48,014 nucleotides of DNA from a virus: IMG/VR virus record IMGVR_UViG_3300030450_003713, positions 1 to 48,014 of that record. One strand, written 5' to 3'. The notes beneath the pieces are model-generated. The model saw nothing but the letters and a program-made list of their open reading frames with translations, was not told where the DNA came from and searched no databases. Both the position numbers and the translations under genes were made by a program. Below, in pieces: positions 12,928 through 47,424 of the stretch (the first letter of the stretch is position 1; every line of letters begins with the position of its first letter).

Positions 12928-13232
12928 TGACAGTTAAGAATATTATAGAACAAGTAGAAAAAATATTCGGAAGACAATCTGAACAATATATGTATCAATT
13001 AATTAATGATGCTCTTGATGATATTGCTGTAAGTAAAAAGAATTATACTCTATCATCTACAGCAAATTTAGAACAATATAAAAGATGGTATGAATTGGCA
13101 GATAAGGTTATTGATATTAAAAAAGTTGAAATATTAGATACTAATGATAGATATATTATGATACCAAAGCTTGCAGACCCTCATAAATTATTAAGAGAAG
13201 ATACTGAATCTTCTGATGATACATTGAAATAA
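12927..13232 (+). CDS. Hypothetical connector-cluster protein, 101 aa
   Basis: The start is GTG 12927, overlapping the upstream TAG by one base; no ATG fits better. The helical N-terminus (IIEQVEKIFGRQSEQYMYQLINDALDDIA) and strand-rich C-terminus (VIDIKKVEILDTNDRYIMIP) resemble small head-completion or tail adaptor proteins. Order (portal, coat, adaptor, this gene) fits neck assembly. Family not certain. Confidence 0.6.
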   Translation: MTVKNIIEQVEKIFGRQSEQYMYQLINDALDDIAVSKKNYTLSSTANLEQYKRWYELADKVIDIKKVEILDTNDRYIMIPKLADPHKLLREDTESSDDTLK

Positions 13233-13241
13233 GGAATAATT

Positions 13242-45733: not shown

Positions 45734-45832
45734 CTAATAAATAAATCTTATGATTGATATAATTACCTTTATCCAACAAAAAAAGGCAAGTGCTGTTACC
45801 AGCACCCACCCTATTAACCTAACATTAATCAT
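45734..45832 (-). CDS. Membrane microprotein, 32 aa
   Basis: ATG 45832 overlaps the end of the preceding gene. The product is one hydrophobic helix (LIGWVLVTALAFFCWIKVII). The DNA also holds a GTGCTG/CAGCAC hairpin (45790-45805) with a T-run downstream on the minus strand, so the stretch may partly serve as a leaky terminator. There is no clear ribosome site, so coding is uncertain. Confidence 0.4.
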   Translation of the reverse strand: MINVRLIGWVLVTALAFFCWIKVIISIIRFIY

Positions 45833-46205: not shown

Positions 46206-46345
46206 TTTTTCTCCCTTGCTATTTTTTTCCTTATTTTATCTATTTTTTTACTTATACTTAAACTTGTATAGTTAAGGTTTATATCTTCAGGTGTTGGTTT
46301 CTTCTTTCTATTTATATAATCTATAAATTGTGTAACTCTACTCAT
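46202..46345 (-). CDS. Small basic protein, 47 aa
   Basis: ATG 46345 overlaps the TGA of the gene upstream as ATGA and has GGAGAAGGA before it. Its own TGA overlaps the next ATG the same way. The product (MSRVTQFIDYINRKKKPTPE, ending KIDKIRKKIAREKK) is lysine-rich and may bind nucleic acid. Function unknown. Confidence 0.65.
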   Translation of the reverse strand: MSRVTQFIDYINRKKKPTPEDINLNYTSLSISKKIDKIRKKIAREKK

Positions 46346-46545
46346 TTTCCTTCTCCTTTTTCTTTATCCCAAAACCAATCAAAACTCTCATAATATTCTT
46401 TATTTAACTTATCCCTTTTCATCTCATTTTCAAATAATCTCTTTGCCTCTTTTTTCGTGTAACCCATATATTTCCTAGTTACCCAATGTCCATCAATTAT
46501 ATCGCTGATAACAATATATCCGTTTATGTTCTTATTTAGTGTCAT
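46342..46545 (-). CDS. Small conserved-type protein downstream of the ribozyme, 67 aa
   Basis: AAGGAG (46557-46552) precedes ATG 46545 and starts right where ribozyme stem III ends. The product has NGYIVISDIIDGHWVTRKYM, then GYTKKEAKRLFENEM, a pattern common in tiny proteins of marine and cyanophages and without known function. Its mRNA would begin at the ribozyme cleavage site 59 bases upstream. Confidence 0.7.
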   Translation of the reverse strand: MTLNKNINGYIVISDIIDGHWVTRKYMGYTKKEAKRLFENEMKRDKLNKEYYESFDWFWDKEKGEGK

Positions 46546-46557
46546 TTCCTTCTCCTT

Positions 46558-46615
46558 TTAAGCCGTTTCGTGTAACTCATCAGACTAGACTACAAATATC
46601 TAGTGACGGCATTAA
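46558..46615 (-). ncRNA. Hammerhead ribozyme, type III
   Basis: Self-cleaving RNA read on the minus strand. Stem III GCCG (46610-46607) pairs with CGGC (46565-46562), extended by UUAA with UUAA across one bulged U. The cleavage triplet GUC ends at 46605. Stem I ACUAGA (46604-46599) pairs perfectly with UCUAGU (46589-46584) over a 9-base loop. The core CUGAUGA is 46583-46577, stem II is a minimal GU-UAC-AC (46576-46570), and GAAA is 46569-46566. Every invariant core base is present and the chain ends lie in stem III. Cleavage would fall between 46605 and 46604, in the sense direction of the flanking genes. Stem II has only two pairs, so speed in vivo is uncertain. Confidence 0.85.
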
Positions 46616-46622
46616 GCCGTCA
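46604..46622 (-). other. Hairpin capping the ribozyme's upstream product
   Basis: TGACGGC (46622-46616) pairs perfectly with GCCGTCA (46610-46604) over TTAAT. The right arm is the 5' strand of ribozyme stem III plus the cleavage site. Before cleavage the hairpin competes with stem III; after it, the upstream mRNA ends exactly in this 6-bp hairpin. TTAAGCCGT occurs twice on the plus strand (46558-46566 and 46612-46620), giving two alternative partners. Confidence 0.75.
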
Positions 46623-46624
46623 TA

Positions 46625-47023
46625 TTATGCTCCTCCCTTCATTGCTACTTTTTTAGCAGGTGCTTTAACAGCAGGTTCTTCTTCTTTAGTCTTTGCTATT
46701 AGGTTTTCAAGGTCTCTACGACATTCTCTTGCTTCATCATAGGCATTTCGTGCTGTGTAAGATGCGTCATCGCATCGGCTTTGTGTGGACTCTATTTCGT
46801 CCTTGGCTGTATCGGCTGTACACTCAAGAGAATCTAGACTAGCAATTAAGTCGTCTAAATCATCTCTTTTTAGTAAGATGTGGGTTGTTGTGTTGAAGGC
46901 TTTATATCCTGCTTCTTTTTCTTTTTCTAACTCTCTAATATCATCATTTAACTTTTTATTATCACTTTCCATCTGTGTTATTTGAGATATGAAAGATGTT
47001 AATGTTTCTGTTAGGTTATTCAT
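46625..47023 (-). CDS. Coiled-coil protein, 132 aa
   Basis: AAAAGGAGTAAATA precedes ATG 47023. Long heptad stretches (MESDNKKLNDDIRELEKEKE, ECTADTAKDEIESTQSRCDD, YDEARECRRDLENLIAKTKE) and an alanine/lysine-rich end (KAPAKKVAMKGGA) show a rod-like protein. No enzyme motif. It is the gene just upstream of the ribozyme and its stop is 10 bases from stem III, so its mRNA 3' end would be made by cleavage. It overlaps the upstream stop by one base. Confidence 0.7.
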   Translation of the reverse strand: MNNLTETLTSFISQITQMESDNKKLNDDIRELEKEKEAGYKAFNTTTHILLKRDDLDDLIASLDSLECTADTAKDEIESTQSRCDDASYTARNAYDEARECRRDLENLIAKTKEEEPAVKAPAKKVAMKGGA

Positions 47024-47424
47024 TATTTACTCCTTTTCTTTGGCTTGAAACTCTCTAATAATTCTTCAGTTTCGTTATCTTTGTCTTGTATTGTAGATAC
47101 ATAAGCATACAATTCTTCGGTAAGTATTTCATAAATATTTGCTTGGATTATACTTATAACACTAGGATTATCACCTTGTAAATCACTTGGTTGTATTAAG
47201 TCAAAATTGGTACTAGCATATTGTAGTAAATCGTAAGTATAAATCGGTATGTTGTTGTCGGCTATCTCGTTTATTACATCATCTATTTCAATAACATATG
47301 TTTCATCTATTTTTATTTCTTCTTCTTTTAATCTATCTTGTAGTTCATCTATTGCTCTTTCTATTATATCCTCTGTGTAATACTTTCTTTCTTTAGAGCA
47401 TATACAATCTTTTTTTCTTTCCAT
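47023..47424 (-). CDS. Hypothetical early protein, 133 aa
   Basis: First gene of the leftward early operon; GAGGAAATC precedes ATG 47424. The N-terminus has CICS, then helices (YTEDIIERAIDELQDRLKEE) and an acidic core (ETYVIEIDDVINEIADNNIP). The C-terminus is basic (ELLESFKPKKRSK). Family unknown. As the first transcribed gene after infection it may be a host-takeover factor. Confidence 0.65.
   Translation of the reverse strand: MERKKDCICSKERKYYTEDIIERAIDELQDRLKEEEIKIDETYVIEIDDVINEIADNNIPIYTYDLLQYASTNFDLIQPSDLQGDNPSVISIIQANIYEILTEELYAYVSTIQDKDNETEELLESFKPKKRSK

Follow-up and report, generated by a model that had tools for sequence, protein, structure and literature searches.

The window analysed here, 48,014 bases long, spans the whole record of an uncultivated virus. 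Its terminase and portal genes lie on the plus strand, and the leftward replication and early region, with genes for a DnaB-like helicase, a Sak-like annealing protein and a PD-(D/E)XK nuclease, lies on the minus strand. Near the right end, the minus-strand gene order is an ocr-like gene, a coiled-coil-like gene, a short gap with a hammerhead ribozyme, and small genes. The ocr-like gene, which is the first of the leftward early operon, scored 29.5 bits against Pfam PF08684 (cut-off 25) and E 5e-9 against PHROG 2568 (ocr-like). The start codon of the 67-aa gene that follows the ribozyme lies at 46545-46543. Nucleotide and protein searches of the named phages returned no relatives of the ribozyme region, and the terminase had only distant matches among them (<60% identity).

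One further structure was seen in this region. Inside a small ORF, a hairpin of 13 pairs is followed by a U run (45783-45812, minus strand), with relatives 92-97% identical over 90+ bases (L003 ~2660-2750, L016 ~2100-2190, L068 985-1077). Rfam gave weak sub-threshold matches to the FopS sRNA for those in L003 and L016. It is possibly a terminator, an attenuator or a small RNA.

The hammerhead and its parts

A sequence-only reading of the window had described a type III hammerhead with all its parts on the minus strand, running in the sense of the leftward early operon. Both the orientation and the order of the parts held up: all of them were present base by base (Table 1) and conserved in four other contigs. 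The core positions C3 U4 G5 A6 N7 G8 A9 ... G12 A13 A14 are occupied by CUGAUGA and GAA(A), without variation in the five loci. Three stems surround it, of 7 bp (stem I), 1-2 bp (stem II) and 5-7 bp (stem III), with the A15.1-U16.1 pair and GUC as the NUH triplet. Loops close stems I and II, and stem III is open on its 5' and 3' sides, which is the type III permutation. The earlier pair counts were slightly short: the perfect pairing ACUAGA/UCUAGU is there, yet stem I reaches 7 bp rather than 6 bp when a U-G pair is counted, and the GCCG/CGGC of stem III grows to 5 bp (GCCGU/ACGGC) with A15.1-U16.1 included. On its sequence, the element in the window is confirmed as a complete type III hammerhead for which cleavage is predicted.

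Table 1. Positions of the ocr-like module, the hammerhead and their neighbours in the window
Feature	Position	Strand	Remarks
ocr-like gene (DNA mimic, anti-restriction)	47023..47424	(-)	Pfam PF08684 and PHROG 2568
Coiled-coil-like gene, function unknown	46625..47023	(-)	upstream neighbour of the ribozyme
Upstream hairpin GACGGC-UUAAU-GCCGUC	46605..46621	(-)	all 6 pairs unvaried in the five loci
Type III hammerhead ribozyme, whole	46562..46610	(-)	sequence and covariation in relatives
Stem III 5' strand GCCGU	46610-46606	(-)	
C17 of the GUC triplet	46605	(-)	
Predicted cleavage site, after C17	46604..46605	(-)	position from known hammerhead mechanism
Stem I ACUAGAU/GUCUAGU	46604-46598 with 46590-46584	(-)	7 bp counting one U-G
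Loop I AUUUGUA	46597-46591	(-)	
Core CUGAUGA	46583-46577	(-)	invariant in 5/5 loci
Stem II/loop II GUUACAC	46576-46570	(-)	pairs G-C and U-A
GAA	46569-46567	(-)	
Stem III 3' strand ACGGC	46566-46562	(-)	
Shine-Dalgarno AAAAGGAG of the downstream gene	46559-46552	(-)	two bases beyond stem III
Downstream 67-aa gene	46342..46545	(-)	not conserved at this position

Pattern scanning revealed only one credible hammerhead motif within the 48-kb window. When any base was allowed at core position 7, the scans gained L069 and nothing extra in the window. A loose motif at ~13194-13237 on the plus strand was rejected, as it had 4-bp stems and a non-canonical triplet and stood at chance level. In 80 Mb of simulated sequence with the dinucleotide content of the window, there were 4 type III motifs with a stem I of ≥6 and a stem III of ≥5, which corresponds to a chance expectation of ~0.005 such motifs per window, both strands included. 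The ribozyme 11-mer GTTACACGAAA reappears inside the next gene (46453-46463, minus strand), where the second copy overlies a GYTKK stretch that is present in the L005 relative as well. This recurrence is probably a coincidence.

Relatives of the ribozyme and conserved pairing

Searches with the upstream gene and the core recovered the type III element in four further contigs (L001, L002, L003 and L006). The CUGAUGA core, GAAA, loop I AUUUGUA and stem III were kept in all five loci. The earlier reading had asked whether the core bases drift in related phages while the flanking genes are conserved; in all relatives with a type III element the core was invariant. Stem I, by contrast, was ACUAGAU/GUCUAGU in the window, ACUAGGU/GCCUAGU in L003 and L006, and AGUAAGG/CCUUACU in L001 and L002. 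Four of its seven pairs had changed on both sides with 100% standard pairing in the five-sequence alignment, and sliding the partner strand of the alignment abolished the covariation signal. In stem II, the window and L006 have 2 bp and L001-L003 a single pair. Compensatory change was found for stem I only, stems II and III being too invariant to tell: the five contigs are close relatives, and neither stem III nor the upstream hairpin, both unvarying, yields covariation.

Loop II carries UACA, which is complementary to the UGUA of loop I. Among unrelated phages, five hammerheads whose stem I likewise has 7 bp carry different loops that are again complementary (UCGU/ACGA, UGGCA/UGCCA, GGUA/UACC, AGCGA/UCGCU and CGG/CCG). 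With the window included, these make six distinct elements; of their 720 permutations, the true pairing of loop I with loop II scored highest, above the other 719 re-pairings. A loop I/loop II pseudoknot has been described for hammerheads (Perreault et al. 2011, PMC3088659), and the sequence points to such a tertiary contact here, as in the extended, fast form. Base pairing between loops I and II that holds the ribozyme in its active fold is the best explanation of these complementary sequences. With four related contigs, a covarying stem I and complementary loops, this is a conserved hammerhead and not a chance motif.

The covariance search that the sequence-only reading had called for did not help. 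Rfam cmscan of the window hammerhead returned no match at the gathering threshold, nor with E up to 10. A fully canonical type I homologue in L012 was missed too, with scores below the cut-offs of Hammerhead_HH9 (17.6 bits vs 52) and RAGATH-1 (27.5 vs 56.3), so the failure was read as poor sensitivity of the models. Because Rfam is blind to the window hammerhead, the decision was made by its relatives. The short-stem canonical phage hammerheads of L001, L003, L012 and others likewise fell under every hammerhead cut-off of Rfam release 15, and annotation based on Rfam overlooks such ribozymes. A scan of genome contigs for the loop I/core pattern found none.

Wider relatives carried hammerheads of type I. 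These lay directly after the homologue of the coiled-coil gene in L069, L072 and L073, one small gene further on in L012-L014, and at other places in the interval from the ocr-like gene to the nuclease gene in L022-L025, L086/L087 and L089. Elements of this last set have a GUA cleavage triplet and a U10.1-U11.1 mismatch closing stem II, a mismatch that is listed as tolerated (PMC3088659). Ten pairs had changed on both sides among the seven distinct type I sequences, and the 5' strand of stem I was at the stop codon or overlapped it. Many family members with the same flanking genes had no recognisable ribozyme, which is therefore dispensable, and relaxed scans revealed no decayed hammerhead copies. 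Since two types occur at one junction, selection appears, from the sequences compared, to keep the cut at the ocr-module junction rather than one RNA sequence.

Neighbouring genes and the upstream hairpin

In each of the five type III loci, exactly 3 nt separate the stop codon of the upstream gene from the hairpin, and the predicted cut lies 20 nt past the stop codon of the coiled-coil gene. The coiled-coil-like protein was 65-73% identical to its homologues in L001-L003, and the identity in L006 was 62.5% (tblastn). The downstream side varied. The ribozyme was followed by a Shine-Dalgarno and the 67-aa gene in the window, by a Shine-Dalgarno and another small ORF in L006, and by a noncoding stretch of ~200 nt in L001-L003. 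The 67-aa gene was absent after the ribozyme in L001-L003, and in L006 another gene stood between the two. The ribozyme of L001 is followed by a start codon only after ~210 nt, past the noncoding stretch. As the stop spacing is fixed and the downstream side variable, the ribozyme is to be counted with the ocr/coiled-coil module, at its 3' end, and the ribosome binding site of the downstream neighbour was rejected as a conserved partner. The emphasis placed by the earlier reading on the gene at 46342 is thus doubtful, with three different neighbours in five loci and conservation on the upstream side.

The noncoding stretch begins directly after the hammerhead (L001 856-1060, L003 1223-1429, L002 from 5478). 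It was 97% identical between L001 and L003 and absent from the window and L006. It contains a 10-bp long-range stem, GAGGGUAGUA/UACUACCCUC, and its folding alone was not significant (z -1.3).

The contact with the ribosome binding site and the 2-bp stem II had both been singled out as worth testing. The 3' edge of the ribozyme is indeed adjacent to the binding site of the gene at 46342, but stem III and the Shine-Dalgarno do not touch. Two pattern scans of the viral collection yielded several dozen phage hammerheads of all three types. A Shine-Dalgarno and an ATG followed within 45 nt after 52/65 of them, and after 32/40 of type III; for positions drawn at random from the same strand of these loci, the figure was 9.3%. 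Such adjacency is partly expected from the shortness of phage intergenic gaps. In published hammerheads, a stem II of two base pairs is frequent, and a single pair occurs in one case (Perreault et al. 2011, PMC3088659). Both features of the window ribozyme are ordinary. On the minus strand of L066, at least 6 hammerheads of types II and III were seen within ~3 kb, several just before a Shine-Dalgarno.

The hairpin between the stop codon and the cleavage site had escaped the sequence-only reading, as had the pairing of loops I and II, the type I hammerheads of the relatives and the tie to the upstream gene. Its 3' arm consists of the stem III strand GCCGU and the cleavage-site C, and the hairpin ends exactly at the cleavage site. 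Because GCCGU is shared and C17 is paired, the hairpin and the hammerhead fold are mutually exclusive. The loop read UUAA(A)U across the loci, and the folding energy was -10.1 kcal/mol. An intrinsic terminator was rejected, since ACUAGAU follows in place of a U run and the terminator scan did not list it.

Among other phage type III hammerheads, 14/36 clusters had a strong, stable hairpin closing the upstream product within the last 40 nt before the cut (p ≤0.05; ~2 expected), with a different geometry. This is suggestive, at the level of sequence, of a property general to phage type III hammerheads. Among the phage type III hammerheads compared, only the window family had a compact 6-bp hairpin whose end coincides exactly with that site of cleavage. 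The upstream product of a type I hammerhead ends in the stem III hairpin by construction, whereas type III leaves a bare strand. The extra hairpin would supply the type III upstream product with the same kind of end as type I.

Proposed cutting of the early transcript

We propose, with a probability of roughly 0.62, that the ribozyme severs the ocr-like/coiled-coil message from the early transcript, so that its 3' end is capped by a hairpin, in analogy to RNase III processing in T7. The hammerhead would cut the RNA during transcription of the leftward early operon, parting this message from the remaining early transcript. The upstream product would end in GACGGC-UUAAU-GCCGUC>p, with a 2',3'-cyclic phosphate, and its hairpin could prevent religation and shield the 3' end. 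The downstream product would begin with a 5'-OH and at once the stem I hairpin, with the Shine-Dalgarno left free. A self-cleaving RNA would then do the job that RNase III does between the early genes of T7. We infer cleavage in the cell, protection of the end and a benefit to the expression of the ocr module; end protection and a T7-like benefit are drawn from analogy. RNAfold, which ignores tertiary contacts, favoured the hairpin widely over stem III (MFE -20.9 vs -11.0 kcal/mol without the 5' arm), so that cleavage could be slow. The program was unfavourable to stem III in many other phage hammerheads as well.

The same exclusion of one fold by the other may be read as a bistable switch gated by translation. 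The strand with the cleavage site would stay trapped in the hairpin until the 5' arm is covered by a ribosome that terminates 3 nt upstream; the freed GCCGU would pair with the downstream ACGGC, the hammerhead would cut, and cleavage would report that the ocr module had been translated. The fixed stop spacing fits this scheme. So does the invariance of the hairpin 5' arm and UUAA (10/10 columns, against 43% in the variable upstream CDS), although this would be equally expected from capping of the 3' end alone. The hairpin and stem III were also examined for covariation that bears on a switch, and they showed no variation in the five contigs. When the upstream bases were kept unpaired in RNAfold, stem III occupancy, otherwise 0.00 in each of them, rose to 0.80 in the window and to 0.62-0.69 in L001-L003. 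However, occupancy was near zero in several unrelated phage hammerheads as well, and this figure was rejected as proof of a switch. The type I relatives also argue against gating, since a ribosome at the stop codon would block the 5' strand of their stem I rather than help it. We consider such gating unlikely, and it is a shade more doubtful still that translation of the anti-restriction module acts as the trigger of self-cleavage of the early mRNA in a two-state switch.

Alternatively, the active hammerhead may be selected for the genes downstream, with the upstream RNA removed and a short, structured 5'-OH leader setting their translation and stability. The Shine-Dalgarno of the window, no more than 2 nt from stem III, and the 32/40 type III hammerheads with a Shine-Dalgarno and an ATG after them would agree with this, as would the HF1/HF2 haloviruses, in which the 5' end of an early transcript maps to the hammerhead site (PMC3088659). 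The neighbour differs among the five relatives, however, and lies far off in L001, and in short intergenic gaps any element would be expected to border a Shine-Dalgarno. This explanation is improbable, more so than gating by translation. It is highly improbable that the hammerhead is selfish or decayed, has no function today and persists through recent common ancestry: hammerheads are common in mobile DNA (PMC3088659) and many family members have none, but the compensatory changes in stem I beside an unchanged core in five contigs, the lack of decayed copies in relaxed scans and the two types at one junction all speak against it.

Phage hammerheads, usually beside a ribosome binding site, are already known. 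The window element shares with the published type III ribozymes with a pseudoknot (PMC3088659) the core, the permutation, the very short stem II, the loop-loop pairing and the intergenic position in a phage. Unlike them, it is unrecognised by current Rfam models and is preceded by an invariant hairpin, which has one strand in common with stem III and stops at the cleavage site. In the lytic viruses HF1/HF2, the hammerhead is 13 nt upstream of an early gene's start codon (PMC3088659), a similar position. These viruses are archaeal, the core is a variant and the genes are different; their hammerhead precedes the first ORF of its transcript, whereas that of the window lies inside an operon, after the ocr module. 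Also comparable are the clustered prophage hammerheads that flank ardA, are active in E. coli and have been proposed to cut the transcript into shorter mRNAs (PMC3088659). They too belong to a polycistronic phage transcript and stand beside an anti-restriction gene. The window differs in having one ribozyme per operon, an ocr-like gene rather than ardA, and an uncultivated phage known here from its sequence. In T7, RNase III cuts the early transcript at five sites (PMC4858673), so that an early polycistronic transcript is again cut between genes, and T7 also has an early ocr gene. The enzyme there is a host protein and not a self-cleaving RNA, making the likeness a functional analogy without homology.

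Two features deserve to be followed: one junction holds hammerheads of two types, and the hairpin and the active fold exclude each other. The ocr-module junction bears on what phage hammerheads are for. Two types at this junction and changing downstream genes make it a compact system with natural variants, in which one can ask whether ribozymes replace T7-style mRNA processing by RNase III in some phages. The hairpin that excludes the active fold offers a handle on whether a natural hammerhead is regulated.
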